Of a stretch of DNA of 64,000 bases, positions 15,517 through 29,148 are shown one piece after another. The stretch lies in NCBI RefSeq assembly GCF_015244745.1, contig NZ_JABCQI010000010.1, positions 1-64,000 of the forward strand. Reading direction: 5' to 3'. The position numbers and the translations under genes were made by a program. How positions within the stretch are numbered: the stretch's first letter is position 1; each line of letters starts with the position of its first letter. The notes below the pieces were generated by a model. The model saw only the letters and a list, made by a program, of their open reading frames with translations, ran no database searches and had not been told where the DNA came from. Origin of the DNA: Gluconobacter cadivus. GTDB lineage: Bacteria; Pseudomonadota; Alphaproteobacteria; Acetobacterales; Acetobacteraceae.

Positions 15517-16281
15517 TCACAGCACTCCGTCGGTCAACATCTCACCATCGGCGCCAATACGAAAATCTGCGCTACCCTCCGTCACCAGCAGCCGGCTGTA
15601 CTCACAGACACCTTCTCCGAGGCACGTCGTTACGCGCTTGATACGCATCAAAGCAGACTGCTCGGAAACACTGAGCCACTGAGCGACATCAGCCGAAGCC
15701 TTGGACAGGCCGATGGAAATATCTGCATGGGCAACCTGAAACTTGAAAATATCCCGAAGGATCGCTGTTGATGTCAGGGAAGCAGCAAGGTCAGGTGACA
15801 CAAGAGGGGCAAGCCGGGCGGGATAAAAAACTTCTGTCACTCCCAAAGGTCCTTCTTCGGACCGATAACCACGACGAATGAACAATGTCTCGTCATCTGA
15901 TGATAAAGCCAGAGCGACTTCTTCAGGAGGACGACGCATCTGGTAATCCAGCAACGCCATTTCTGGGCTCAAACCTTTTCCGGCCAGAATTTCAAAAAAC
16001 GAATGAATCGTTTTCTGCCGCCCTGGCCGATGCAGGGCCCCTACGAATGTCCCACGTCCATGCTGCCGGACGACGACATCCCTTTCAGCGAGATAGGACA
16101 ACGCCTGACGGATGGTAATGCGACTAACACCATACATCAGGCACAGTTCAGCCTCGGATGGGAGCCGCTCCATGAAACGGCTGTCCTTGCCAATCAACCC
16201 GGAAATATGATGCCCAACCTGAAGGTAAAGCGGCGTCGGGCCATTCGTATCGAGCGCTGACGAGAACATGGCGTTAGGCAT
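15517..16281 (-). CDS. GntR-family regulator with UTRA ligand domain (HutC subfamily)
   Basis: A 254-residue protein. The winged helix (about residues 15-80) includes LPSEAELCLMYGVSRITIRQALSYL and the wing VVRQHGRGTFV. The UTRA effector-binding domain covers about 95-245. It is divergent from the TonB receptor that heads the purine cassette, so it is the obvious candidate regulator of that cassette, with a purine-related or phosphorylated ligand. UTRA regulators commonly bind small pathway metabolites. The effector and operator are not proven; an inverted repeat at 16345-16372 is one possible site. Confidence 0.9.
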   Translation of the reverse strand: MPNAMFSSALDTNGPTPLYLQVGHHISGLIGKDSRFMERLPSEAELCLMYGVSRITIRQALSYLAERDVVVRQHGRGTFVGALHRPGRQKTIHSFFEILAGKGLSPEMALLDYQMRRPPEEVALALSSDDETLFIRRGYRSEEGPLGVTEVFYPARLAPLVSPDLAASLTSTAILRDIFKFQVAHADISIGLSKASADVAQWLSVSEQSALMRIKRVTTCLGEGVCEYSRLLVTEGSADFRIGADGEMLTDGVL

Positions 16282-16344
16282 AAAGAAAAAATTCCAGAAA
16301 ACGTTTCACTTTTGGATTGAAGAGCACACCAAAACCCGGTACCA

Positions 16345-16372
16345 AGACGTCCTATAACAACCTAATACGTCT
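16345..16372. promoter_or_regulatory. Inverted repeat in the GntR/TonB-receptor divergent region
   Basis: AGACGT at 16345-16350 and ACGTCT at 16367-16372 are reverse complements separated by 16 bases. The same AGACGT followed by TAATAAC occurs before the second TonB receptor (around 25389-25401), so it may be a shared GntR recognition element. The arms are short and the assignment is weak. Confidence 0.3.
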
Positions 16373-16457
16373 TTGCCGATTCAGTCACTGTTTTGTGCCA
16401 GCGTCGGGAGAGATTCGGGCCTTTCTGGCGTCTCCGCAGTGTTTGAGAGCTTCTTCC

Positions 16458-18809
16458 ATGCGTGCTTCAACCTTCCTGAGTACCGCCGTTATCGGCAACA
16501 TGTTCTGTATGGCAGCCTACGCTGCTCCTGTTGCGGATACAAAGCACGTCGGGGAGAAGCGCCACTCTTCCGCCACCGGCAAAAGCGTGAAGCCCTCCCC
16601 TTCCCGGCCAGAAGTCATCCGGGTGTCCGCGGAATCCGTGGCAGGCGGTCGCATGGCTCCCCAGAATGGCACGAAATCACGCAGCGAGATTACTCAGGCC
16701 TATATCGCCAAACAGGCACCGACACCTAACGTCTTCAAGCTGCTCGGCAATCTTCCCGGCGCCAATGTCGCCAGTGCTGACCCCTTCGGGATGGTGAGCG
16801 GCAACATGACGATCCGTGGCATGAACAGCGATCAGATCGGCTTCACCGTTGAGGGTGCGCCTCTGAACGATATCGGTTCCTACATGGCTTTTCCAACCGA
16901 ATGGGTGGATTCCGAGAACCTGCGTGAAGTGACGATGCAGCAGGGGTCCGCTAATCTGGACTCTCCCGTCATTGGAGCATCAGGCGGAATTGTGTCGATG
17001 AACCTGCTTGATCCGTCTCACAAAATGGGCGCCACGATTGCAGGGTCTTTCGGGTCTTACAACACACATCGCGAATATGTTCGTCTTCAGAGCGGCGATA
17101 TCGGTAACACCGGAATGCGGGCTTTCGTCGCATGGTCACATCTGGAAGAGCCGCATTTCCGTGGTGCTGGAGACGATCACAAGCAGCATATTGACGCCAA
17201 AATGGTCAAAGACTGGATGAACGGAAGCCGAAGCACCGTTGCACTGACCTTTGATGATTCCATGAAGGTGGCTTACCTGAACCCCTCCCTGTCTGCCTGG
17301 CAGGAATATGGTCGAGGCGCGAATTATAGCAGAGATTTTTCGCCGACAGACACCAAATACTGGAAACTGCACCAAAGCCCTTATCGCGTTCTGATCCTGA
17401 GCGCGCCGCAGAATATCGTCGTCAATGACAAACTCGGGTTTGATTTCACGCCGTATTTTTACTGGAATTCTGGCACGATCGCCTCGGCGTCCCTTCTGTC
17501 TGAGAACGCCATCTATTCCGGGACACAAAAATACAGCATCGACCTGAACGGTAATGGCACGACCACCGATAAGGTGATGATGTATACGCCGTTTGGTACA
17601 CCTTACGTTTATCGCCCCGGTCTTGTCTCAAAAGTTCATTATACTATTGGCAAGCATACGCTGGTATTTGGATACTGGTTCGACTGGTCCAGGCAGCGCA
17701 TGGTCAATCCGTACAGCGCGATTGGAGAAAATGGCGGACCGGCAAATGTGTGGGGATATCTGGGAAACGTAAAACTGGCTGATGGCACACGCCTTGCAAG
17801 TTATGACAACCTGACCATCACACGCGTCAATACTCTGTTCTTCGGTGACACATTCAACGCACTGCATAATCGTTTGCGAGTGGAAGCAGGAATCAAGGAG
17901 TCTATGGTAACCCGCATCGGGTACAACTACCTGCCTGGCGCACAATACCGCACCACCATGAATGCGGCCGTTGCGACGCCTAATCTGGGTGCACGTTATC
18001 GTATTGACAGTCATAGCCAGATCTTTGCAGACGTTGCGACCAATTTCCGCACACCAACGCTGAATGCGCTCTACAACACCTACAGCGCATCAACCGGAAA
18101 GGTGGCGACGCAGGCCAATACTGCCCAGAAAACTGAGTATTCGATCTCTGAAGAACTTGGTTACCGCTATCAGGGCGACATCCTGGACGGCTCCATCACA
18201 TTCTTCAACTATAACTTCACGAACCGTCAGGTTTCTACACAGGTTACGATCAACAACGCGCAGATTACCCAGAACATCAATGCTGGCGGCCAGACGTCGC
18301 GCGGCGTAGACATCGAGATTGGTCTGCGTCCGTGGCATCATTTGCGCCCCTACATCTCGGCAGAATATCTGCACGCAACAATCGATAACAACTACAAGGT
18401 TGGGGCAGACTATCTTCCAACAGCTGGTAAAACTGCTGTGCGCAGCCCGAATGTGCAAGCGTCCGTCGGGCTCGACTATGATGATGGAACATATTTTGCA
18501 GGCTTTTCCGTCAAGTATGTCGGACGGCAGTTCTCAACTTTCATGAATGACCAGGCCATGCCAGGATATGTCAACGCGGATATGAACTTCGGTTATCGTG
18601 CACCGAAGATCTTCCACACACATCCCGAAATCAGGCTGAATCTTATGAATGTCGGCGATAACAAGTATCTCTCCGGTGTGGCTGGTGTCGCAGCGTCCTC
18701 ACGCGCAGCACGAGGGATCTATGGCAGCACCATCGCGTCCCAAGGGTCGCCGACATACTATGTTGCCGGAAGTTTCGCGGCTCTTGTCACAGCCAAAATT
18801 GACCTTTGA
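16458..18809 (+). CDS. TonB-dependent receptor, putative purine/nucleoside outer membrane importer
   Basis: A TonB-gated outer membrane barrel of about 783 residues. The ATG at 16458 gives a clean signal peptide (MRASTFLSTAVIGNMFCMAAYA, cut after APVA or AYA); a TTG-initiated longer frame from 16317 runs through promoter sequence and is rejected. The plug contains SEITQAYIAKQAPTPNVFKLL and IRGMNSDQIGFTVEGAPLND, and the barrel ends in a beta strand. It is not of the siderophore subfamily and no Fur box is near. It is the first gene of a same-strand cassette with a purine permease, nucleoside hydrolase and adenine deaminase, so import of a purine nucleoside or related compound is inferred from context only. 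Confidence 0.85.
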   Translation: MRASTFLSTAVIGNMFCMAAYAAPVADTKHVGEKRHSSATGKSVKPSPSRPEVIRVSAESVAGGRMAPQNGTKSRSEITQAYIAKQAPTPNVFKLLGNLPGANVASADPFGMVSGNMTIRGMNSDQIGFTVEGAPLNDIGSYMAFPTEWVDSENLREVTMQQGSANLDSPVIGASGGIVSMNLLDPSHKMGATIAGSFGSYNTHREYVRLQSGDIGNTGMRAFVAWSHLEEPHFRGAGDDHKQHIDAKMVKDWMNGSRSTVALTFDDSMKVAYLNPSLSAWQEYGRGANYSRDFSPTDTKYWKLHQSPYRVLILSAPQNIVVNDKLGFDFTPYFYWNSGTIASASLLSENAIYSGTQKYSIDLNGNGTTTDKVMMYTPFGTPYVYRPGLVSKVHYTIGKHTLVFGYWFDWSRQRMVNPYSAIGENGGPANVWGYLGNVKLADGTRLASYDNLTITRVNTLFFGDTFNALHNRLRVEAGIKESMVTRIGYNYLPGAQYRTTMNAAVATPNLGARYRIDSHSQIFADVATNFRTPTLNALYNTYSASTGKVATQANTAQKTEYSISEELGYRYQGDILDGSITFFNYNFTNRQVSTQVTINNAQITQNINAGGQTSRGVDIEIGLRPWHHLRPYISAEYLHATIDNNYKVGADYLPTAGKTAVRSPNVQASVGLDYDDGTYFAGFSVKYVGRQFSTFMNDQAMPGYVNADMNFGYRAPKIFHTHPEIRLNLMNVGDNKYLSGVAGVAASSRAARGIYGSTIASQGSPTYYVAGSFAALVTAKIDL

Positions 18810-18813
18810 TCGG

Positions 18814-20166
18814 ATGTTTTACGCCCGTCTTGATCGTTTTTTCAACCTCACGGCCAGCGGAACAACCGCTGGCCGTGAGGTTATTGCTGGCCTGACAACC
18901 TTCGCCGCAATGGTCTACTGCGTTGCAGTCAATCCCATGATCATGGCGGAAGCCGGCATGGACCGCGCAAGCGTCCTGAGCGCCACATGCCTGATTGCAA
19001 TTTTCAGCACGACTCTGATGGGGCTTCTGGCAAACCTTCCCCTTGGCGTCGCTCCGGCCATGGGATCGAATGTGGTCTTTGCGATCATTCTGGTCAAACA
19101 GATGGGCGTTCCCTGGCAGGCAGCTCTTGCATTGGTCTGCCTGACAGGGCTGATTTTCATGGTCATGAGCCTGACACGCATTCGCGAGCGCATTGCCCAG
19201 GAGATCCCTGATACACTCCGGATCGGTATTCAGGTTGCGGTCGGTCTGGTCATCATGTTCATCGGAATGCGCAATTCCGGCTTTGTTGTCCCCAGTCCCT
19301 CTACCTTTGTGTCCATGGGGCCCATTACCAATCCCAAAGTGCTCATGACGCTGGCTGGTTTTATTCTCACACCAGTTCTTGTCGCCAGACGGGTCCCAGG
19401 TGCCCTGATCATTTCTATTATTGCTCTAACCTTTGTCGGGCTTTTTCTTCCCGACGGCAAAGGTGGAAGCATCACGCCCTGGCCCACACATATCTTTGCG
19501 CTTCCCCGCATGCCCCATGAGACGGCTTTCCAGCTCGAACCACTCTATCTCGTGCATCACATCTTCTACGTCCTGCCGATGTTGTTCTTTTTCCTCTGCA
19601 CTGAACTGTTCGGCACGCTCGCAAACCTGCTGGGCGTTGTAACCGCGACAGGAATGGTGTCGGAAAGTGGTCGCATTCCTAGAGCCCGAGAAGCTTTCAT
19701 AACAGATGCTGCCGGAAGTATTCTGGCTCCAGTATTAGGAACCTCGATTGTAACGGTCTATTCTGAATCCATCACGGGCGTTCATGCCGGCGGTCGAACC
19801 GGCCTGACGGCTCTGGTCATAGCGGGAGGGTTCGTTACAGCACTTTTCCTGTGGCCTTTGTTCATGATCATTCCACCTCAGGCAACAGCGCCTTCTCTCC
19901 TCATGGTGGGAATGATGATGTTTCAGGGAGTCCGCCATCTGGATCTGTCCGACCTCAAGGAAAGTGCTCCTGCCGCCCTGACATTCATTATCGCTCTTCT
20001 GACCGGCAATCTCATCAACGGCATGGCCATCGGAACATTCTCATACGCAACCATGGCTCTCGCAACAGGCCGTGGCCGAGCAGTATCGCCAGTCGTGTGG
20101 GGTCTATGCGTGATTTTTATTATGTTTTTTGCTGTTTCAGCCCAGATGCATGGCCATCACGGCTGA
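18814..20166 (+). CDS. NCS2-family purine permease (AzgA-like)
   Basis: An inner-membrane nucleobase:proton symporter of about 450 residues. The ATG at 18814 (MFYARLDRFFNLTASGTTAG), 4 bp after the receptor stop, matches the family's usual start LDRFFxLxxxGTT. A frame that begins at 18649 overlaps the receptor and is not used. Diagnostic features are AGLTTFAAMVYCVAVNPMIM, GLLANLPLGVAPAMGSN (substrate region) and GTSIVTVYSESITGVHAGGRTGLTALV, which is the AzgA-type second motif. It is expected to bring adenine, guanine or hypoxanthine into the cytoplasm, which fits the secreted hydrolase and the deaminase that follow. Confidence 0.92.
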   Translation: MFYARLDRFFNLTASGTTAGREVIAGLTTFAAMVYCVAVNPMIMAEAGMDRASVLSATCLIAIFSTTLMGLLANLPLGVAPAMGSNVVFAIILVKQMGVPWQAALALVCLTGLIFMVMSLTRIRERIAQEIPDTLRIGIQVAVGLVIMFIGMRNSGFVVPSPSTFVSMGPITNPKVLMTLAGFILTPVLVARRVPGALIISIIALTFVGLFLPDGKGGSITPWPTHIFALPRMPHETAFQLEPLYLVHHIFYVLPMLFFFLCTELFGTLANLLGVVTATGMVSESGRIPRAREAFITDAAGSILAPVLGTSIVTVYSESITGVHAGGRTGLTALVIAGGFVTALFLWPLFMIIPPQATAPSLLMVGMMMFQGVRHLDLSDLKESAPAALTFIIALLTGNLINGMAIGTFSYATMALATGRGRAVSPVVWGLCVIFIMFFAVSAQMHGHHG

Positions 20167-20178
20167 GGGGATTTTTCC

Positions 20179-21255
20179 ATGTTTTTCAGACTTCGCCTTT
20201 CAGTTCTTCTGCTCGGCTTTTCTTCTCTGACTTTCGCTCAGGCCCAGACAACGCCGACACGCAATTATGTCATCATCGACAACGATTTCGCGGGTCCGGG
20301 CGGAACGAACATCCAATCCGTCATTCCCTTGCTGGGGCAACCAGACAAAGCAACCCTCCTTGGCTTTACAGTCGTGGTTGGAGATGGCTGGGAAAACGAA
20401 GCGGTTGCCCACCTGTCACGCTTTCTGGAAATAGCCTCTGCGCCGGCGAAATTGCCTGTCGTGCCAGGTGCAACGCAGCCATTGGTCAACTCACGCCCAC
20501 GTCTTCTAGCCTGGGAAAAATCCAATGGTAAGATGCCATGGAAGGGCGCATGGCGTGGAGATGCTCCTGATCTTCAGCCTCAGATCAAAACACTTAAAGA
20601 AGGAATGCCAAGCCGCCCTGTCTCTCCGGAGAAGGCAGCATTGTTTCTTATCCGCCAGGTTCATGAACATCCTCATGAGGTCACTCTTCTCGCAGCCGGC
20701 CCCATGACGAACGTCGCTCTTGCCATCAAGCTGGATCCAGAATTCGCCTCACTCTGTCGCAGGCTCGTTTTCATGGGGGCCATCGTTGATGGCAACCTTT
20801 CCCAAGTGACGGATAGTGCGGATTATTATACCGATTTCAACTTCATGTTTGATCCGGAAGCCGCAGCCATTGCGTTGGAAGCGCCATTTCCAGAGGTGAT
20901 TTCGATTGGGGCAGTCGCCAATCCCATTCGCATGACACCTGAAATCCGCGACCAGGCCACCCTCCATCCTGGGCCTGTTTCAGATTATCTGAAGCGCTAT
21001 TTCCGCCCACAACCCATGTGGGATGAACTGGCCGCGGCTATCGCCTTGGATCCGACTTTGATGACACATAGCGTAACGGCATACATGACAGTCGATCTGA
21101 CGCATGGTCCGAATTACGGATACGCTCATGTATGGCCTGATAGCACCCGCCCTCACATTGGCGAGCGCCCCGTCCGAATTGTCACAGCAGTCGATACGCC
21201 TCGTTTCATCCAGACGTTTGTAGACGCAGCCAATCGGATCAGTACGCATGATTGA
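20179..21255 (+). CDS. Secreted nucleoside hydrolase-like protein with altered metal motif
   Basis: A 358-residue protein of the inosine/uridine-preferring nucleoside hydrolase family (N-glycosidic cleavage of nucleosides to base and ribose), with a signal peptide that ends at about AQA22, so it should act in the periplasm. The first strand reads IIDNDFAGPGG; the secreted subfamily usually has DNDFAGDPDG, so the Asp residues that help hold the catalytic calcium seem replaced by Gly/Pro/Gly, while D34 and D36 remain. LLAAGPMTNVALAIKLDPEF and the C-terminal MWDELAAAIALDP, with the Asp that matches the distal metal ligand, are conserved. It lies between the purine permease and adenine deaminase and overlaps the latter by 8 bp. 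Activity needs testing because of the altered motif. Confidence 0.8.
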   Translation: MFFRLRLSVLLLGFSSLTFAQAQTTPTRNYVIIDNDFAGPGGTNIQSVIPLLGQPDKATLLGFTVVVGDGWENEAVAHLSRFLEIASAPAKLPVVPGATQPLVNSRPRLLAWEKSNGKMPWKGAWRGDAPDLQPQIKTLKEGMPSRPVSPEKAALFLIRQVHEHPHEVTLLAAGPMTNVALAIKLDPEFASLCRRLVFMGAIVDGNLSQVTDSADYYTDFNFMFDPEAAAIALEAPFPEVISIGAVANPIRMTPEIRDQATLHPGPVSDYLKRYFRPQPMWDELAAAIALDPTLMTHSVTAYMTVDLTHGPNYGYAHVWPDSTRPHIGERPVRIVTAVDTPRFIQTFVDAANRISTHD

Positions 21256-23023
21256 TGTCAGCTCTTCTCTGACCTCGCCTGAACTGCGCACACGCGCCGT
21301 GGATGCAGCAACCGGGCGGGCGCCGTTCGATATTCTGCTTGTGAATGGAAAGATTGCTGATGTTGCGACGGGAGAACTGCGTAACGCTGATGTCGGGTTG
21401 ATTGGGCCGCTGATTGCCAGCACACACCCAACGGGTCAGCGTCAGGATGCCCTCAAGATTTTCGATCTCGCAGGTGCAGTGATCGCACCAGGACTTATTG
21501 ACTCTCATATGCATATTGAGAGTTCCATGATTACCCCCCGGATCTACGCAAAAACCGTAGTACCGCAAGGAACGACGACCGTGTGCTGGGACCCACACGA
21601 AATCGGAAATGCCAGCGGTCTGGATGGCGTGAAATGGGCCATTGAAGCCACCAAAGGCCTTCCTCTCCGCATTCTGGTCGAAGCCCCGTCCTGTGTACCG
21701 TCCGCACCGGGGCTGGAACGCTCTGGTGCCGTCTTTGACGAAACGGCCATGGCAGATATGCTATCCTGGCCTGAAGTGATCGGTGTTGCTGAAGTGATGG
21801 ATATGCGAGGCGTCATCACGGGCTCACCTCGCATGAAGAGTATTGTCAACGCCGGCCTTACAAGCGGAAAACTGGTATGTGGCCATGCACGAAACCTCAA
21901 AGGCAGAGACCTTCAGGCGTTTATGGCTGCTGGCATAGAGTCAGACCATGAACTGACGTCTAAAGCTGATATTCTGGAAAAACTCCGATCCGGTATGACC
22001 CTGGAGTTGCGAGTTTCCCATGAAAATATCCTGCCTGAAGCGATTGCCGCCTTTGAAGAATTGGGCTGCGTTCCACAAACCGTCACGCTCTGTACGGATG
22101 ATGTTTTTCCAGATGATCTGTTGCGCCGTGGAGGAATGATTCATCATCTCAGATGCCTCGTTTCTTTGGGAATGCAGCCTCTGGATGCCCTGCGTTGCGC
22201 AACGTTGAATGCAGCGATGCGTCTTGAACGGCGAGATCTTGGCCTTGTTGCAGCTGGCCGCCGGGCGGATCTGGTAGTTTTCAACAACCTTTCAGATTTT
22301 ACGCCTCTGGAGGTTTTCACATCCGGCATCCATGCTGCGTCACACGGAACGCTTCTGATCGGCCTCCCGACTGAGCTGCCAGGACTTCCGCTCAAAACCA
22401 TAAACCACGCGCCTGTCACCCCTGAAGATTTTCAGATTGCGGTGGCCGATGCCACGAAAGTCCGTGTTCGAACTGTCCGTACACCCCGCACCACTCAGTG
22501 GGGAGAACGGGAAATGAGCGTTGAAGCGGGCCATCTCGTTCTGCCACCTGACGCTGCGCTCATGGCTGTTTTCAACCGCTATGGGAAAAACGGGCCACCT
22601 GGGCTCGGCATTCTTGAGGGATGGGGAGACTGGTCAGCCACAATCGGCACAACGATCCTTCATGATAGCCATAATCTTGCGATTTTCGGTCAAAATCCGG
22701 AAGATATGGCGCTTGTAGCCAACACTCTCATTGCGAGTGATGGGGGCATGGCAGTCGCACGGAACGGCAAAATTATCGCCCATGTTCCACTTCCTGTGTG
22801 CGGGCTGCTTTCTCCGGAAAATCTGGAGGTTGTCAGTCATCAGTTTACAGCCGTTCGGAATGCCGCAGCAGCGGCGACAACATGGGACGGTCCGACCGCC
22901 ATGATCAAGCTGGTGACGGGCGCCTCTCTCGCCTGCAATCCCGGGCCACACGTCACAGATCTGGGGATTACGGATGGTATGACAGGTGAAATCATCACCA
23001 ACATGGTCATGGAGACTGCCTGA
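21248..23023 (+). CDS. ade: Adenine deaminase
   Basis: A 591-residue metal-dependent amidohydrolase that converts adenine to hypoxanthine and ammonia. Metal and active-site motifs are all visible: DSHMHIESSM, WDPHEIGNASG, GHARNLKG, IESDHEL and LCTDDVFPDDL, in the family order, followed by the C-terminal small domain. The length matches the bacterial Ade family (about 580-600). The start overlaps the nucleoside hydrolase by 8 bases and the stop overlaps the next start by one base, so translation is likely coupled. In this cassette it would process adenine released in the periplasm and imported by the permease. Confidence 0.95.
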   Translation: MIDVSSSLTSPELRTRAVDAATGRAPFDILLVNGKIADVATGELRNADVGLIGPLIASTHPTGQRQDALKIFDLAGAVIAPGLIDSHMHIESSMITPRIYAKTVVPQGTTTVCWDPHEIGNASGLDGVKWAIEATKGLPLRILVEAPSCVPSAPGLERSGAVFDETAMADMLSWPEVIGVAEVMDMRGVITGSPRMKSIVNAGLTSGKLVCGHARNLKGRDLQAFMAAGIESDHELTSKADILEKLRSGMTLELRVSHENILPEAIAAFEELGCVPQTVTLCTDDVFPDDLLRRGGMIHHLRCLVSLGMQPLDALRCATLNAAMRLERRDLGLVAAGRRADLVVFNNLSDFTPLEVFTSGIHAASHGTLLIGLPTELPGLPLKTINHAPVTPEDFQIAVADATKVRVRTVRTPRTTQWGEREMSVEAGHLVLPPDAALMAVFNRYGKNGPPGLGILEGWGDWSATIGTTILHDSHNLAIFGQNPEDMALVANTLIASDGGMAVARNGKIIAHVPLPVCGLLSPENLEVVSHQFTAVRNAAAAATTWDGPTAMIKLVTGASLACNPGPHVTDLGITDGMTGEIITNMVMETA

Positions 23024-24285
23024 TGACGTTTCCCCACGACGTAACGGCCATGCGTCGCGATCTCCACAGCTTTCCCGAAACAGCCTTTCTTGAATACCGA
23101 ACGGCATCACTTGTCGCTCAACGCCTGACAGAATTGGGTTATTCTGTCAGGGTTGGGCCGGAGATCATGTCCATGAACGATGTTCGTGGATTGCCTACAG
23201 AAGAAGACATTCAGGCTGCCCAAGAGGATGCCCTCGCAAATGGAGCAGACCCTTTTTGGCTAAAAAGAATGCCCGGTGGCCAGACGGCTGTTTGCGGAGA
23301 AATTCGGCGTGGTGAAGGCCCGGTTGTTGCTCTTCGCTTTGATATGGACGCCCTCCCCGTCCACGAAAGTTCATCATCACATCATTCTCCGGCTCTGGGC
23401 AATTTCAGGTCTCGACACGAAGGGCGGATGCATGCGTGCGGCCATGATGGTCATACGGCTATAGGGCTGGCTGTCGCAGAAAAACTGTCGCGTCCAGAAG
23501 CAGAATGGAAGGGAACACTCCGGTTTATTTTCCAGCCTGCGGAAGAAGGAGGGCGCGGAGCCCAGCCGATCGTTTCGAGTGGACTTCTGGATGATGTCGA
23601 CCGTTTTCTGGCCAGTCATCTTGGCTGTCAGCTTCCAAGCGGGCAGATTGCCCTGACGGCTGATGGCTTTCTTTGGGCGGAAAAGTGGAATGTCACCTTC
23701 ACAGGCAAAGCGGCTCACGCAGCAATGTGCCCTGAAGAAGGCCGGAACGCCCTGCTCGCTGCGGCTATCGCCGTTCCTGGTCTTTATGCGCTACCTCGCG
23801 ATGGACAGTCTGACACGAGGATCAACGTGGGTTTGTTACAAGCGGGCCGTGCCCGAAACGTCATTGCAGATCAGGCCTATCTCGAACTTGAACTGCGTGC
23901 TTCAACCCGCGAAGGCCTCAGTCGCCTGACAGACGGCGCAACGCGCACCCTGCAAGGCGCGGCTCTGACTCAGGGCATTGAAGTCAAAATCGACATTTAC
24001 GGAACAGCCATCAGCGCTCAGTCCGACCCGGAGATTATGGAGCGTTTGAGAGATGCGATTCTTGGCACAGAAAGTGCCGCCGTTATTCAGAGCTGGCCGA
24101 TAGGTGGCGGTGATGACGCAACCTTCATGATGCAGCGCGTGCAGGAGCGCGGGGGCAAAGCTGGTTATTGCCTGTTTGGGGCAGATATTACCGCCCCTCA
24201 TCATGCCAGTCTGTTTGATTTTGACGAGACTGTATTGCACAGAGCCGTATCGGTTCTTTCAAAATTTGTGGAACTGCCAGCATGA
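23023..24285 (+). CDS. M20-family amidohydrolase (AbgA-like)
   Basis: A 420-residue zinc metallopeptidase-fold hydrolase of the M20/amidohydrolase group. Visible motifs are RRDLHSFPETAFLEYRT, RFDMDALPV, MHACGHDGHTA (metal ligands), FIFQPAEEGGRGA and the terminal GGGDDATFM / HHASLFDFDE. The spacer with DIQAAQEDALANGADPFWLKRMPGGQTAV is typical of AbgA, which cleaves p-aminobenzoyl-glutamate, rather than of IAA-amino acid hydrolases. Here the partners are purine genes, so the substrate could be an amide-linked purine or pterin-like compound, but that is speculative. No signal peptide is seen, so it acts in the cytoplasm. It overlaps both neighbours by 1-4 bases. Confidence 0.88.
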   Translation: MTFPHDVTAMRRDLHSFPETAFLEYRTASLVAQRLTELGYSVRVGPEIMSMNDVRGLPTEEDIQAAQEDALANGADPFWLKRMPGGQTAVCGEIRRGEGPVVALRFDMDALPVHESSSSHHSPALGNFRSRHEGRMHACGHDGHTAIGLAVAEKLSRPEAEWKGTLRFIFQPAEEGGRGAQPIVSSGLLDDVDRFLASHLGCQLPSGQIALTADGFLWAEKWNVTFTGKAAHAAMCPEEGRNALLAAAIAVPGLYALPRDGQSDTRINVGLLQAGRARNVIADQAYLELELRASTREGLSRLTDGATRTLQGAALTQGIEVKIDIYGTAISAQSDPEIMERLRDAILGTESAAVIQSWPIGGGDDATFMMQRVQERGGKAGYCLFGADITAPHHASLFDFDETVLHRAVSVLSKFVELPA

Positions 24286-24962
24286 GCACTCTTCCTTTCT
24301 GGCAGGTTTTCGCACCGGATGTTGCATTGAGCAGCCCCTATACCGATCGTTACAGGGTTCGTGCAGGAAATCGGAATCTTGACCTCCCTCTGCGTACTCT
24401 ACCGAATGGAAAGCAGGCGGTCTCATCCCTTCTGGTCAATCAGACATCCTTTGAAGTGATGGATGTGTTGTGTGAAGAATTGGTCAATCTGGCCCAATCA
24501 CTGAAGCCGGATCTGGTTGTCGGTATGCCGACTTTGGGTCTAGGGCTGGCTGCGGCTGTCGCCCGTGGGTGTGGACTGCCACGATATGTGCCACTGAGCA
24601 CATCGCGAAAATTCTGGTATGAAGACACGCTTTCTGCGCCCCTTTCGTCCATTACCAGTCCAGACAATGCTAAAAACCTCTACCTTGACCCCAACTTGCT
24701 TCCGTTGCTCCACGCAGCCAAGAAAATCATCATCGTTGATGACGTAGTCAGTACGGGGCAATCATTGGCTGCCGGTGTCAATATTCTTGCGGCAGCAGGC
24801 GTCTCACCAATCGGAGGCCTTTGTGTCATGACGCAAAGTGATCGTTGGAAGAACCGCTTTTCTTTTCCTGTTCTAAGCTGCTTCTCCTCCCCCCTTTTTG
24901 AGCACACGACAGAGGGCTGGATTGAACAGAAATGCCCTCCTCAAACAGGGAGCTCTGATTGA
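24282..24962 (+). CDS. Purine-type phosphoribosyltransferase
   Basis: A 226-residue type I phosphoribosyltransferase. The PRPP-binding motif is IIIVDDVVSTGQSL (about residues 149-162), with a beta-strand lead-in PDLVVGMPTLGLGLAAAVARGCGLP. The hood segment is unlike canonical Apt or Hpt and includes YVPLSTSRKFWYEDTLSAPLSSITSPD. It should join a free purine base to PRPP to give a nucleotide, trapping hypoxanthine or adenine in the cytoplasm, which completes the scavenging cassette. The start overlaps the M20 gene (ATGA). The exact base specificity is not readable. Confidence 0.88.
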   Translation: MSTLPFWQVFAPDVALSSPYTDRYRVRAGNRNLDLPLRTLPNGKQAVSSLLVNQTSFEVMDVLCEELVNLAQSLKPDLVVGMPTLGLGLAAAVARGCGLPRYVPLSTSRKFWYEDTLSAPLSSITSPDNAKNLYLDPNLLPLLHAAKKIIIVDDVVSTGQSLAAGVNILAAAGVSPIGGLCVMTQSDRWKNRFSFPVLSCFSSPLFEHTTEGWIEQKCPPQTGSSD

Positions 24963-25508
24963 TACGCTTCTGCCGTCTAAGCGCGGACGTTGGGCTGAAC
25001 AGGACCTGTGAGGTGCCCTAATGACTCTGCCGCTATAGAACCCCAACGCCATGCTGGCCGACCAGAGCGATAACAAATAATCGTTTCCTCCAATATCTGC
25101 TGATGCACGAAATCCTGCCGGTCATTCCATCACGCAAAAGCTGCGGTGGTCCATAGAAAACAGACTGGCGGCTTTACCGACCACAGCCACATTTTGCGAT
25201 CCGTTCCGACGAGACCGCCTTGTCCCGAGAAGTTTCATCACCTTTGCCGCCGTAAGGCTTTGGGTCAGGTCTTTTGTCAACGTAATCTGGACTGTCACTC
25301 GCACGACATGCGTGCCTATACCGGAACGTCCCGTAACAATCCTTTCAAGTTCTATAAAAATATCAATCCATAGTGGGATATTGCCAAAAGACGTTAATAA
25401 CCATTATATAATGTTATTTTTTATAAAACATTACGTTCGCGTGTATTTTTTTATCTCTCGCTATGATAGTTGGATAAAGATATAAAATCTTAAATCCGAG
25501 ATAGAATA
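24963..25508. other. Intergenic gap with a possible transposase fragment
   Basis: About 545 bp between the two halves of the locus. The stretch 24955-25011 reads on the plus strand as LIDTLLPSKRGRWAEQDL then a stop, which looks like the N-terminal part of an IS5-type transposase; this is a weak resemblance. The remainder to about 25370 has no recognised gene; a 60-codon minus-strand frame (25122-25304) has no family signature. The last 130 bp is very AT-rich and carries the dyad reported at 25396-25418, consistent with a promoter for the next gene. Confidence 0.45.
25396..25418. promoter_or_regulatory. Dyad with embedded TATAAT before the second TonB receptor
   Basis: AATAACCATTAT at 25396-25407 pairs with ATAATGTTATT at 25408-25418 apart from one bulged C, around the perfect palindrome CATTATATAATG. 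TATAAT at 25407-25412 could be a promoter -10 element, in which case the dyad would be an operator placed over it. The gene start is about 90 bp downstream. Confidence 0.4.
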
Positions 25509-27848
25509 GTGAAATACTCACATCGTTCTTTGCCTCTCCTCACTCTACGGCAAATTCCATATGCGAAATGCATCGTTCCCCTGATGGTTATCGCGGGCAT
25601 GGGATTAACCACGGGTCAGGCAGATGCGTCAGAATTTGCATCTTCTCGGATAAAGAAAAAGCAGGAAAAACCACAAAATACAGGTCCTTCAACAACGCTT
25701 TCAGGTGGTGAAGAACAAATTACTGTCACTGTCCGTCGTCGGAGCGAGCCTCTGCAGAAAGTCCCGGTTGCCACGTCTGTTTTCACTGCAAAAGATGCTG
25801 CACGGAACAATGTTCATGATCTTCAGGGCATTTTCCAGTTCATCCCGTCAGCCAATTTCCGAACAAGCGCTTCCTCAAAAGATAGAACAGTTTTTGTGCG
25901 TGGAATAGGCACCATTTCCACCTCTCCAGGCGTAGAACCCTCTGTCTCCACCGTTCTGGACGGCGTTGTCTTGGCCCGCTCGGGTCAGGCCACTGCGGAT
26001 CTTCTCGATCTTGAGCATATTGAAGTATTAAGGGGGCCCCAAGGCACTTTGTTTGGTAAAAATGCTTCGGCAGGCGCGGTGAATATCGTCACTGCAGCGC
26101 CCACAGAAGCCTTTCATGCCCATGCTGATGCGTCCTATTTTTCGGGCGACGAATATCGTCTGAGTGCTGGAGCCTCGGGCACACTTATTCCCTCAAAGCT
26201 AACTGCCAATGGATCTTTTCTGGTAGGCGGCTATACTGGGAATGTTCGTAATGTGTACAACAGCGAAACCGTTAATGGATATCAGCATCGAGGGGTGAGA
26301 ACGAAACTGGCATGGACGCCAGACGACCAGACACGGGTTACCCTTGGACTGGATTATATGTATTCCAACGATGCCGTTCCCAATGGAGTCTTTTCATCGA
26401 CCTCACATGTTGCCTACCCTACAGGAACAGTGACGAACAATGCCGCTCTGGCGCAGGCTCTAAGTGCCGAAGGCATTAGTCCTTCATCGAACAATACACG
26501 CGTCAGCAACAATACCCTCAGCAAATCCATTGATCACAATGGGGGAGCTTCAATCACGCTTGATCGGAAGTTTGGCGCTTATACTCTGACTTCCATTTCC
26601 GCCTACCGGCGCTGGCAGAACACACAGGATCAAGATTACGATCAACTGTCTCAGCCGTACCCTTCCCTGCCGCAACTCGCTGATCATGGGTGGCTGGACT
26701 TCTGGCAGGCGTCACAAGAGGTGCGTATTGCCTCCCCGAAAGGCCATTTTTTCGATTACGTCGGTGGTCTGTATTATCTTCATACCTCTGATTCAGAGAC
26801 ATATGATCGATCTTTACAGCCTTATGGAGGAACATCCACTTCCGGACATGCAAATTTCGGAACCACCGGAAACAATTACGCGGTCTTTGCAGAAGGCAAT
26901 CTGAACTTCACAAAGAATTTTAGGGCCATTCTGGGGCTTCGACTTTTGAGAGACGATCTGAATTACCGCTTCAACCGCACATCGACATCCGCCGCGGCGG
27001 TAACGGGCATCCGTCCAGACTATTCTTCCAATGGCTCAACAGCTCACAACGGATATGTAGACCGGATCGGCCTGCAATACGACATCAGCCACGATATCCA
27101 TACCTATTTCACTTACTCCCATGGCTATAAGGGACCAGCTTATAACGTGTTCTTCAATATGCAGAACACCGATGCAAAATCTCTACGGCCAGAACAAAAT
27201 AACAGCTTTGAAATTGGCCTGAAATCACAGTTCCTGCATCGTAGGATTACAGCGAATTTCGCAGCTTTCATTGAAGATTTTTCAAACTATCAGGCCAATT
27301 TTCTGGATACCGTTGCGGGTGCGACCGTTACGCGCCTTATCAATGCAGGAACAGTTTCCAGCAAAGGCGTAGAGGGGGACATTACCGCACGCCCCTTCCG
27401 CTATCTGACCGTTGGAGGCAATTTTGCCTATACCTATGCCACGGTCGATCATTTCAATTGCCCTGCTGGTGCGCCTCTCTCCTGCAATGTAAACGGCCAG
27501 CCGCTACCTTTTGCACCGCGCTGGAAACTTGTCCTGAATGCAGACTACACGCGACCACTGAATGATCGTTTCACGCTCTCTCTCGACAGCGATTACACAT
27601 GGCAAAGCCGTACCCAGTATTCGCTGACGGAAACGCCCGACACCATCCAGAAAGCTTATGGAATTTGGAACATGAGCACGACGATCGAGGACAGGAAGCA
27701 TCGGTTGCGTCTTACGCTCATCATGCGTAACGCCATCAATACACATTACGCCTCTTATATGGGCTATGGGAGTTTGGGAGGTGTCGTAAACTGGCTTCCG
27801 CGCGATTACGGCCGTTATGGTGGCTTTACCCTGCACAAGGACTTCTGA
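25509..27848 (+). CDS. TonB-dependent receptor (Caulobacter-type, non-siderophore)
   Basis: A 779-residue outer membrane receptor that starts with GTG. The leader contains a hydrophobic stretch (CIVPLMVIAGMGLTTGQADA), followed by a linker, the plug with EEQITVTVRRRSEPLQKVPVATSVFTA and EHIEVLRGPQGTLFGKNASAGAVNIVT (the TonB plug signature), and a barrel ending WLPRDYGRYGGFTLHKDF. It resembles the sphingomonad/Caulobacter receptors that import plant-derived compounds or sugars. The MFS transporter gene follows after 4 bp, so the two probably carry the same substrate across the two membranes. No Fur box is seen. Confidence 0.88.
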   Translation: MKYSHRSLPLLTLRQIPYAKCIVPLMVIAGMGLTTGQADASEFASSRIKKKQEKPQNTGPSTTLSGGEEQITVTVRRRSEPLQKVPVATSVFTAKDAARNNVHDLQGIFQFIPSANFRTSASSKDRTVFVRGIGTISTSPGVEPSVSTVLDGVVLARSGQATADLLDLEHIEVLRGPQGTLFGKNASAGAVNIVTAAPTEAFHAHADASYFSGDEYRLSAGASGTLIPSKLTANGSFLVGGYTGNVRNVYNSETVNGYQHRGVRTKLAWTPDDQTRVTLGLDYMYSNDAVPNGVFSSTSHVAYPTGTVTNNAALAQALSAEGISPSSNNTRVSNNTLSKSIDHNGGASITLDRKFGAYTLTSISAYRRWQNTQDQDYDQLSQPYPSLPQLADHGWLDFWQASQEVRIASPKGHFFDYVGGLYYLHTSDSETYDRSLQPYGGTSTSGHANFGTTGNNYAVFAEGNLNFTKNFRAILGLRLLRDDLNYRFNRTSTSAAAVTGIRPDYSSNGSTAHNGYVDRIGLQYDISHDIHTYFTYSHGYKGPAYNVFFNMQNTDAKSLRPEQNNSFEIGLKSQFLHRRITANFAAFIEDFSNYQANFLDTVAGATVTRLINAGTVSSKGVEGDITARPFRYLTVGGNFAYTYATVDHFNCPAGAPLSCNVNGQPLPFAPRWKLVLNADYTRPLNDRFTLSLDSDYTWQSRTQYSLTETPDTIQKAYGIWNMSTTIEDRKHRLRLTLIMRNAINTHYASYMGYGSLGGVVNWLPRDYGRYGGFTLHKDF

Positions 27849-27852
27849 GCCA

Positions 27853-29148
27853 ATGATCAGACGGCTCTTCAGTCCATCACAGGAATCAGAAACAGCACAA
27901 CCGGACACAACAGAAAGACTGTCCGTCCTAATGCCCTCTCTGCTGTTTCTGATTGGTATCATCGCCTACGCAGACCGACAGATTCTCGCTTTGCTCAAGC
28001 CTGAACTGGACCGTATTTTCGGCTGGACTGCTGCAGACTACGCGTCAATTTCCTCATGGTCACAAGCGACCATCGCTGTCAGTCTGCTGGTCAGCGGGTG
28101 GGTTGTTGATCGTCTGGGAATAAAAAAGACGTTGGGTTTTGGCCTGACAGGATGGAGCCTTGCAACCATCCTGCATGCTGCGGTGCGGAGTGTCAGCGGC
28201 TTTTTGGCCGTCCGGGTCGCTCTGGGACTGTTTGAGGGTGTGGGCACACCCGCCAGCATGAAGGCCATTAGAACGACATTCCCTCGTGATGCTCAGGGGC
28301 GCATGATCGGCCTGCTCAATGCAGCCCCAAATCTGGCCGCAATGAGCACACCTCTGATTGTGGCTCTTCTATTCCCCGTACTGGGATGGCGCGGCACAAT
28401 TATCGCGGTTGGGGCTTCAGGACTGCTTTGCGCATTGCTCTGGTTCCGTTTCGCCCGCATGAACGACAGCGAAACACAGACCTCGGCAACAGGTCATGCG
28501 GAGCCCAGCGCCTTTCCCGCATGGCGCTGTGTCACAGGTTTTGCATTGGGAAAATTTCTTACAGACCCGGTCTGGTGGTTCCTACTATTCTGGCTACCCG
28601 ACCTGCTCCATCGGCGCTTTGCACTTGAGCCCTCTTCCATGGGTTTTCCTCTCGCCGTAGCGTATGGCATGGCAGGGATTGGCTCCATCCTGGGAGGGTA
28701 CGCGCCTTTTCTCCTGACGCGGGCCGGGTACAGACATGAAACAGCACGACGCGCCATTATGGCTTTCGCCGCCTTGTGCGCCCTGCCGCTCCCTCTTCTG
28801 CTCACAACGTCCAGCCTGACTCTTGGCATTGCAGTCTGCGGGCTGACTCTGGCTGCTCATCAGGCCTTTGCTACCAATCTGTTCGGGTTCATTACCGAGT
28901 GGGTTCCTACGCGAATGACTGGGCGTGCAACGGGTGTGGGCGCTTTTGCGGGAAATATCGGCGGCGCGCTCATGCTGCACCTTCTGGGGCAGTTTGCGGC
29001 TCCAGGTCAGTCAATGAAGCCTGTTTTCGCTTACTGTGCTGTCGCCTATATTCTGGGGTGGCTCGCACTGGCGCTTTTCGCGCCAGTTAGGAAACTTCTT
29101 TCCCAAACTGCCGATCCCGACCTTAACCGTCCAGTTCCGACAGTCTGA
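27853..29148 (+). CDS. MFS transporter, anion/hexuronate-like (ACS) family
   Basis: An inner-membrane transporter of about 431 residues and 12 segments. The ATG at 27853 (MIRRLFSPSQ), 4 bp after the receptor stop, was chosen over an upstream frame that overlaps the receptor. The first segments read LIGIIAYADRQILALLKPEL with FGWTAADYASISSW and GWVVDRLGIKKTLGFGLTGWSLAT, typical of ExuT/GudP/tartrate transporters of organic anions. That would suit an acidic or sulfonated sugar. The 3' end overlaps the convergent Gfo/Idh gene by 26 bp. Confidence 0.88.
   Translation: MIRRLFSPSQESETAQPDTTERLSVLMPSLLFLIGIIAYADRQILALLKPELDRIFGWTAADYASISSWSQATIAVSLLVSGWVVDRLGIKKTLGFGLTGWSLATILHAAVRSVSGFLAVRVALGLFEGVGTPASMKAIRTTFPRDAQGRMIGLLNAAPNLAAMSTPLIVALLFPVLGWRGTIIAVGASGLLCALLWFRFARMNDSETQTSATGHAEPSAFPAWRCVTGFALGKFLTDPVWWFLLFWLPDLLHRRFALEPSSMGFPLAVAYGMAGIGSILGGYAPFLLTRAGYRHETARRAIMAFAALCALPLPLLLTTSSLTLGIAVCGLTLAAHQAFATNLFGFITEWVPTRMTGRATGVGAFAGNIGGALMLHLLGQFAAPGQSMKPVFAYCAVAYILGWLALALFAPVRKLLSQTADPDLNRPVPTV

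Follow-up and report, generated by a model that had tools for sequence, protein, structure and literature searches.

A conserved cassette in Gluconobacter and related acetic acid bacteria that joins a TonB-dependent receptor to purine genes

Introduction

What does a TonB-dependent receptor carry when its gene stands at the head of a row of purine enzymes? The question is raised by positions 15517-24962 of a 64,000-nucleotide stretch of the Gluconobacter cadivus genome (RefSeq assembly GCF_015244745.1, 3.29 Mb in 32 contigs; contig NZ_JABCQI010000010.1, positions 1 to 64,000), which we refer to throughout as the window. A first-pass annotation, made from the sequence of the window, described a GntR/UTRA regulator gene divergent from six tightly packed genes, and proposed that a nucleoside enters through the receptor, is split in the periplasm, and yields a base that is imported, deaminated and trapped as a nucleotide. 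The analysis presented here indicates that the cassette is real and conserved and is best read as a new arrangement built from known parts, which probably forms a TonB-driven purine-nucleoside scavenging system under GntR/UTRA control.

Part of such a route has been described in Pseudomonas aeruginosa. According to an excerpt of the relevant paper, the hydrolase Nuh resides in the periplasm and supports growth on adenosine or inosine, and the outer-membrane transporter (if any) and the inner-membrane transporter for adenine are unidentified (PMC5437708). The cassette, in a genus that is not known as a pathogen, offers candidates for the outer-membrane step and the base permease in one operon-like row, both steps being open in P. 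aeruginosa as that excerpt has it (PMC5437708). If the proposed role is correct, purine nucleosides would join the substrates of TonB-dependent transport, and the cassette would show how a thiamine-type receptor can change its ligand.

A conserved seven-gene cassette

All seven genes were found as open reading frames and were named with Pfam and NCBIfam. These calls bear out both the divergent regulator with its six packed partners and the gene names given in the first-pass annotation, with one correction: the hydrolase had been listed before the permease, whereas on the DNA the permease follows the receptor, and the hydrolase, deaminase, M20 enzyme and phosphoribosyltransferase come after it in that order. 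Successive plus-strand genes are separated by 4 nt and 12 nt and then overlap by 8 nt, 1 nt and 4 nt, figures that rest on coordinates in which two starts are inferred (receptor 16458, permease 18814).

The same gene order, which the first-pass annotation had proposed to look for, was sought in 80 named loci kept from a contig scan with a 12-sequence hydrolase alignment; neighbouring genes were sought with the window's own genes as queries, so that other receptor families could escape. The full order of seven genes recurs identically in 10 of the 80, across three genera: in Gluconobacter cerinus, G. frateurii, G. japonicus, G. thailandicus, Gluconobacter sp. Gdi and G. wancherniae, in Acetobacter persici (with receptor and permease matches in pieces), A. 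tropicalis and A. musti, and in Gluconacetobacter tumulicola. Variant orders occur in KSS12 (L183: regulator, receptor, permease, deaminase, hydrolase) and in Acetobacter nitrogenifigens (L184: a different receptor, hydrolase, permease, deaminase), and a Rhodospirillales metagenome-assembled genome (L165) has a receptor and a hydrolase. In a second set of 10 loci with a receptor or hydrolase ortholog, drawn largely from the same genomes, nine (L075-L083) carry all seven genes in order, and the tenth (L038, genome G071) is missing the M20 and phosphoribosyltransferase genes. An orthologous hydrolase (at least 73% identity) is present in 7 of 26 genomes of the genus, and receptors at least 64% identical are present in 8 of 397 genomes of the family, with the best two candidates per genome scored.

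Comparison of the flanks, over about 4-8 kb per side (for L111 and L114, one side covered about 0.4 kb), showed long shared stretches on both sides only in G. frateurii, G. japonicus and G. thailandicus. Because two-sided sharing of this kind is limited to three of the 11 cassette loci, the window included, the cassette seems to have been inherited or moved as one unit. On a plasmid of Gluconobacter oxydans ATCC 9937 (L104:8058-12184), relatives of the receptor and the hydrolase are both fragmentary and lie close to a transposase gene of the IS5 type.

The receptor is tied to purine genes in three ways: by the conserved order, by a probable sister receptor that adjoins a hydrolase, and by unrelated receptors in similar modules. 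In a 39-row tree, whose root serves for drawing only and in which L084, L025, L100 and L103 are long rows of unsure place, the 8 receptors of at least 64% identity form one clade with support of 100/100. The sister of this clade (94/93) is the receptor of L084, from another Gluconobacter, with a nucleoside hydrolase gene directly after it; as its branch is long and its place unsure, we regard it as the probable sister of the cassette receptors. Receptors with no detectable match to the cassette receptor adjoin a cassette-type hydrolase and an AzgA permease in A. nitrogenifigens, in genome G056 and on a Novosphingobium plasmid. The first two modules include a deaminase, and their receptors are 71% identical to each other and about 23% identical to that of the plasmid. 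A further genome (G048) has a receptor of 36% identity, two AzgA genes, a second, divergent TonB receptor, and then deaminase, M20 and phosphoribosyltransferase genes. These assemblies are examples and not a statistic. Of the 12 plasmid records with a cassette-type hydrolase, four were examined; the row of receptor and permease occurs in one of these (Novosphingobium) and not in the other three.

Two plasmid rows are described in more detail. The Novosphingobium row just mentioned (sp. KACC 22771, L206:4188-10309), which is unannotated, consists of genes for a TonB receptor, an M20 enzyme, a nucleoside hydrolase and an AzgA-type permease. On a Methylosinus sp. C49 plasmid (L221:6702-12860), a same-family receptor of 35% identity stands among ExbD, ExbB and a 2',3'-cyclic phosphodiesterase/3'-nucleotidase, an arrangement that suggests a nucleotide-to-nucleoside uptake unit.

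Table 1. Features of the cassette and the basis of each assignment.
Feature	Position	Strand	Basis
GntR/UTRA (HutC-type) regulator, presumed local repressor/sensor	15517..16281	-	PF00392 + PF07702 over cut-off
Conserved intergenic site AAGACGTCCTATAACAACCTAATACGTCTT, putative GntR operator/promoter element	16344..16373	+	core in 12/12 aligned regions
TonB-dependent receptor, signal-like N-terminus	16458..18809 (ORF opens 16317; ATG 16458 likely start)	+	PF00593 + PF07715
AzgA-type (NCS2) purine base permease	18814..20166 (ORF opens 18649; start inferred)	+	PF00860 Xan_ur_permease
Secreted-type nucleoside hydrolase, IU_nuc_hydro	20179..21255	+	PF01156, predicted fold, N-terminal hydropathy
Adenine deaminase, adenine deaminase 2 (3nqb) type	21248..23023	+	PF01979 + PF13382
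M20D amidohydrolase, AbgA-like, without signal-like N-terminus	23023..24285	+	TIGR01891
Phosphoribosyltransferase (PRK06031 family), presumed purine base to nucleotide	24282..24962	+	NF004689

ORF, open reading frame.

A probable route for purine nucleosides

In the route that we favour, a TonB-energised receptor, kin of the genome's own thiamine-type receptor, would import a purine nucleoside; the secreted-type hydrolase, whose fold and export are predicted, would take off the ribose in the periplasm; and the permease, by its AzgA family, would carry the base into the cell. There the adenine deaminase would convert it to hypoxanthine and ammonia, as its family assignment implies, and the phosphoribosyltransferase would trap the base, presumably a purine, as a nucleotide, or the base would pass to the genome's xanthine dehydrogenase. 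The M20 enzyme may widen the substrate range to a purine that bears an amino acid through an amide or urea link. Rhizobia and roseobacters have a related core of hydrolase and deaminase behind an ABC importer instead. The first-pass interpretation is supported in part: the gene identities and the logic of the pathway hold, and comparison between genomes ties the receptor to the purine genes, while transport, enzyme substrates and co-transcription are predicted. The metal-site motif of the hydrolase is non-canonical.

Several observations weigh against this route. Nucleosides are small enough for porins, and a TonB receptor is not obviously needed to admit them. With the window genes as queries, 67 of the 80 hydrolase loci were matched by the hydrolase query alone, and receptor relatives of 37-40% identity on Gluconobacter and Kozakia plasmids lie in non-purine surroundings. 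The hydrolase has DNDFAGPGG in place of DxDxxxDD; with the metal-site motif altered, its activity on ordinary nucleosides is therefore not assured, and this enzyme is the weakest biochemical link of the proposal. The hydrolases found beside ABC importers are of a different type, canonical in the aligned motif. The deaminase scores below the TIGR01178 equivalog cut-off (354 against 472.5 bits), and no purine genes were seen within about 7 kb of the M20 relatives in Rhodococcus, Halocatena and Plesiomonas, in all three of the three loci viewed.

The TonB receptor

Both the Plug and the beta-barrel domains of the receptor are present above cut-off, and residues 52-56 (EVIRV) form what we take to be a TonB-box-like segment. 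The AlphaFold model (predicted local distance difference test, pLDDT, 70.8) has PqqU (9c4o) as its top Foldseek match, at 15% identity, and also resembles FecA and FhuA. TonB_C matches are present in the genome, and TonB/ExbBD-energised transport by the receptor is predicted.

Judged by gene context, the nearest relatives of the receptor outside the cassette are putative thiamine receptors. In the loci recovered for the next 22 receptors (L053-L074), a thiamine pyrophosphate (TPP) riboswitch is present in 11 and an APH and/or PnuC neighbour in 13 (APH alone in 3), one mark or another being present at all 22. The nearest paralog found in the same genome, C2:86827, has a riboswitch, kinase and PnuC, and plasmid-borne relatives in Sphingomonas and Novosphingobium capsulatum likewise have a kinase and PnuC alongside. 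Excerpts of two papers give G. oxydans GOX1347 as a predicted transporter of thiamin (PMC7142613, PMC3400609), and its Bacteroides counterpart OMthi has genetic support according to a passage of a third (PMC5613172).

These relationships raise the possibility that the cassette receptor carries something else, such as a thiamine-like vitamin or a metal complex, and is merely co-located with its neighbours, nucleosides entering through porins for ordinary purine salvage. The thiamine-type marks at all 22 nearest receptors point in this direction, and the periplasmic Nuh of P. aeruginosa, for which the excerpt identifies no outer-membrane step (PMC5437708), would be consistent with it. We nevertheless consider this explanation unlikely. 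The 8 cassette receptors have no TPP riboswitch, APH or PnuC within about 1.5 kb; receptor and purine genes remain together in loci whose flanks differ; and unrelated receptors hold the same place in similar modules. In addition, 17 positions set the cassette receptors apart from the thiamine-type ones: each carries a residue that all 8 cassette receptors have and none of 24 thiamine-type rows does, at least 85% of those rows agreeing on a different one. Among the 17 are changes from acidic to neutral at 166, 543 and 699, and from neutral to acidic at 148 and 371. A thiamine role for the cassette receptor itself was set aside, as no riboswitch, kinase or PnuC lies alongside it; no riboswitch was found in the window at the gathering score.

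Receptors outside the cassette stand in three settings of note. The nearest paralog lies in a row of TPP riboswitch, TonB receptor, APH-type kinase and PnuC on contig C2 of the same genome (L085:6462-10836, about 86.5-90.8 kb), likely a thiamine uptake operon. On the same contig, the gene next after that of another TonB-type receptor encodes an AppA-like histidine acid phosphatase/phytase that scores below family cut-offs (L195:8114-11577). On the Gluconobacter oxydans H24 and Kozakia plasmids (L101, L102), receptor relatives occur with LysR, oxidoreductase, dipeptidase and ABC genes, possibly another small-molecule uptake island.

The nucleoside hydrolase and the permease

The hydrolase scores 154.7 bits with PF01156, and its N-terminus is hydrophobic and signal-like by hydropathy. 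Its AlphaFold model has a pLDDT of 80.8, and all 50 among the Foldseek matches listed are nucleoside hydrolases. Residues 281-283 are Trp-Asp-Glu, which presumably resembles the purine-specific enzymes. An N-terminal DxDxxxDD is given as the nucleoside hydrolase hallmark in the part consulted of PMC3608555. The replacement is itself conserved, DNDFxGPG(G/E) being found in 12 of 12 homologs in a first alignment; in a second, Novosphingobium has DNDFLGPGQ, the motif departs further in remoter relatives (Devosia DQDLTGPGG, Caballeronia another form), and five hydrolases of the ABC-island type are canonical.

With a non-canonical metal site, the enzyme might act on an N-riboside other than purine nucleosides. 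The change of motif in all 12 homologs speaks for this idea, and a plant-pathogen NH-like effector with another altered motif is reported, in the same part of that study, to be inactive on standard nucleosides (PMC3608555). It is set against a motif that is conserved rather than decayed, neighbours that are purine enzymes, and structural matches to nucleoside hydrolases without exception among the 50, and it appears quite unlikely to us.

Substrate for purine-nucleoside scavenging might be available on plants: according to an excerpt of PMC4688390, the apoplast of Arabidopsis contains nucleosides, a possible natural source for plant-associated bacteria, and the plant also has a purine nucleoside hydrolase that is extracellular. 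A study of Asaia, in the excerpt consulted, names a nucleoside hydrolase as one of the released proteins for which no secretion was predicted (PMC12502724).

The permease has plant AZG1 and AZG2 as its best solved relatives, and its Xan_ur_permease domain is closest to AZG/AzgA. AZG1 and AZG2 have been reported as cytokinin transporters, and acetic acid bacteria live on plants and fruit. The cassette could on these grounds consume the N6-alkyl adenines that plants make, namely cytokinins along with their ribosides: the ribosides would be the substrate of the hydrolase, AzgA would import the base and the deaminase would remove the side chain. We consider this very improbable: the closest solved relative of the deaminase is named adenine deaminase 2 (3nqb), a type that we take not to belong to the cytokinin deaminase family, and the M20 enzyme would be left without a role.

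The deaminase and the phosphoribosyltransferase

For the deaminase, which has both the Amidohydrolase and the Adenine_deam_C domains (PF01979, PF13382), 3nqb is the best solved relative at E 1.8e-195. The phosphoribosyltransferase scores 238 bits against a cut-off of 175 for NF004689 and matches solved adenine phosphoribosyltransferases weakly (E 4e-7 and above). Matches to xdhB and to an OHCU decarboxylase in the genome would allow pure purine ring catabolism, which is possible; we do not favour it because the cassette holds no ring-opening enzyme.

A related core is found behind ABC importers. ABC genes, a nucleoside hydrolase and a deaminase stand in a row in all six plasmid loci viewed, three of them picked by the deaminase (H5, H7, H19; Palleronia, Thalassospira and S. 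meliloti) and three by the M20 enzyme, which is present there by construction (H41, H42, H45; two Shinella and Roseateles sp. XES5). The S. meliloti island further holds M20, phosphoribosyltransferase, NCS2 permease and ureide genes. Within the family, we tabulated all deaminase matches of at least 48% identity outside the window in 150 genomes, excluding the classical adenine deaminases of L024 and L044. Among the resulting 22 loci, several of which are short or end at a contig edge, 8 have an SBP_bac_5-type binding protein, 8 have an M20 enzyme (of two subfamilies) and 7 have both, and a TonB receptor was found with the window-gene queries in 3. The peptide/opine-type SBP_bac_5 assignment rests on Pfam for two loci and on 57-77% identity to those two for the other six. 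At the class level, this deaminase clade is present in only 3 of 327 genomes (E 1e-110).

The phosphoribosyltransferase occurs in seven other genomes (E 1e-20). In one of the five examined it adjoins M20 and ABC importer genes; an M20 gene beside it was not shown in the other four. M20 relatives of 40-50% identity lie in two other genomes on contigs of 3.2 and 5.2 kb, too short to read, and in a third genome no match to the other query genes was found within 12 kb. In alphaproteobacterium G164 (L216:9202-14900), phosphoribosyltransferase, M20 and ABC importer genes are found together without an adenine deaminase.

The M20 enzyme and a possible conjugated purine

The M20 enzyme scores 286 bits against a TIGR01891 cut-off of 153.75, has the aminobenzoyl-glutamate utilization protein 3io1 as its best solved relative, and by its sequence would be cytosolic. 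It is present in 10 of 10 full named cassettes. The first-pass annotation took it as a sign that the true substrate may be a modified or conjugated purine. This suggestion gains support from M20 partners of three kinds that recur beside such genes; the three outside relatives without purine genes weigh against it.

Set out in full, the natural substrate would be an amino-acid-conjugated purine nucleoside, for example threonylcarbamoyl-adenosine (t6A) from tRNA turnover. The hydrolase would free the conjugated base, AzgA would import it, and the M20 enzyme would remove the amino acid to leave adenine. We chose t6A as the candidate because it is formally an N-acyl threonine: chemically it is an N-acyl-amino acid (purinylcarbamoyl-threonine), with the type of bond that M20D enzymes cut. 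AZG permeases accept N6-substituted adenines (cytokinins). The AbgA-like nature of the closest solved relative, the co-occurrence of M20 and SBP_bac_5 in the 22 deaminase-clade loci, and the pairing of phosphoribosyltransferase with M20 and an ABC importer in L216 all point the same way. In the Novosphingobium row, moreover, both the M20 enzyme and the hydrolase have a signal-like N-terminus; the best matches of that M20 are other M20 profiles, all below cut-off. The recurrence of M20 enzymes in three kinds, in one case with a signal-like N-terminus and a place between receptor and hydrolase, is the strongest argument for the idea, which deserves weight.

Several points count against it. The window M20 has no signal-like N-terminus, so that a conjugated base would need to pass through the AzgA permease. 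The related cassettes L183/L038 and L184/L028 gave no M20 match, and none is annotated within 9 kb in Palleronia and Thalassospira. The Rhodococcus, Halocatena and Plesiomonas relatives, as noted above, have no purine neighbours, and since the M20 enzymes belong to different subfamilies no shared substrate follows. On balance we hold a conjugated natural substrate to be possible, if doubtful.

A bolder and rather unlikely version would make the cassette a TonB route for conjugated purine nucleosides, most likely tRNA-derived N6-threonylcarbamoyladenosine and its relatives, which would be deribosylated, de-conjugated by M20, deaminated and salvaged. The thiamine family would have supplied the receptor, a step that would involve acidic-to-neutral exchanges, and in Novosphingobium the same logic would have arisen a second time, built on an unrelated receptor together with an M20 that bears a signal. 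If the M20 enzyme does act on a conjugated purine, it would suggest that hypermodified tRNA nucleosides have a catabolic route, and the bolder version would amount to a dedicated pathway that reuses such nucleosides from the environment.

The regulator and a putative operator site

The regulator scores below the cut-off of every NCBIfam model that it matched and is divergent in 10 of 10 full named cassettes. Between it and the receptor, a block RRGACG(T/A)C(C/T/A)TATAACA is present in 12 of 12 aligned regions, one of which belongs to a regulator of 40% identity; the window site also bears a second ACGTCTT arm. A pattern built from that very site has one match in the window. In the whole genome, with up to 2 mismatches, it has 11 matches, the cassette's own included, compared with 18 for a reversed control, and the sole further 1-mismatch match falls inside another TonB-like gene. 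Because the matches fall below the control, we infer that the regulator and site would act as a local switch; this search gave no evidence of targets beyond the cassette. Consensus scans found no excess of promoters (9 sites, shuffle mean 8.1) or of terminators (9 sites, shuffle mean 12.8).

Downstream of the cassette, no gene is listed in positions 24963-25508. This stretch has a 137-base match close to the far end of the G. thailandicus locus L109 and is possibly an old mobile-element remnant. Just beyond it, at 25509-29148, the genes of a second TonB receptor and an MFS transporter overlap and form a separate receptor-transporter pair.

Comparison with known systems

The individual enzymes have clear precedents. 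The deaminase aligns over its full length with adenine deaminase 2 (3nqb), which we take to be locus Atu4426, and shares its HMH, DPHE, GHA, SDHE and TDD stretches; 3nqb is a single enzyme, and the activity of the window protein is predicted. The M20 enzyme aligns with AbgA-like 3io1 over the N-terminal insertion and the metal-ligand stretches. In contrast to that system, the cassette has neither AbgB nor AbgT, and its context is one of purine genes. Cleavage of p-aminobenzoyl-glutamate or of another acyl-amino acid by the M20 enzyme is putative.

At the level of gene sets, the closest comparison is with the LacI/ABC islands of S. meliloti pSymB, Shinella, Palleronia and Thalassospira, which share a homologous adenine deaminase and a nucleoside hydrolase and, in some cases, M20, phosphoribosyltransferase and NCS2 permease genes. 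Those islands have an ABC importer and a hydrolase with the canonical motif, whereas the cassette has a TonB receptor and a signal-bearing hydrolase. The thiamine TonB receptors (OMthi, PMC5613172; GOX1347, PMC7142613, PMC3400609; excerpts in each case) are the nearest kin of the receptor by context and share energised uptake of a small aromatic compound, which is predicted here. The cassette receptor differs from them in having no TPP riboswitch, kinase or PnuC, in lying beside a GntR gene, and in being tied to purine enzymes.

The statement that this is not a textbook system holds in part. Among the titles and abstract openings listed from the open-access literature, no description of a TonB-dependent purine-nucleoside system was found. 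The pairing of receptor and hydrolase is not wholly unreported, because a passage on Xanthomonas albilineans describes the TonB-dependent receptors XALc_0643 and XALc_0646 as sharing a putative operon with what may be a nucleoside hydrolase (PMC3542200). TonB receptors stand near a nucleoside hydrolase in both organisms; the paper suggests carbohydrate transport, and that passage names no purine pathway (PMC3542200).

The nearest physiological parallel is P. aeruginosa Nuh, where, as far as the excerpt goes, purine nucleosides are hydrolysed in the periplasm before import of the base, as is predicted here (PMC5437708). To this scheme the cassette adds a TonB receptor and an AzgA permease in the same row, together with the deaminase, the M20 enzyme and the phosphoribosyltransferase.

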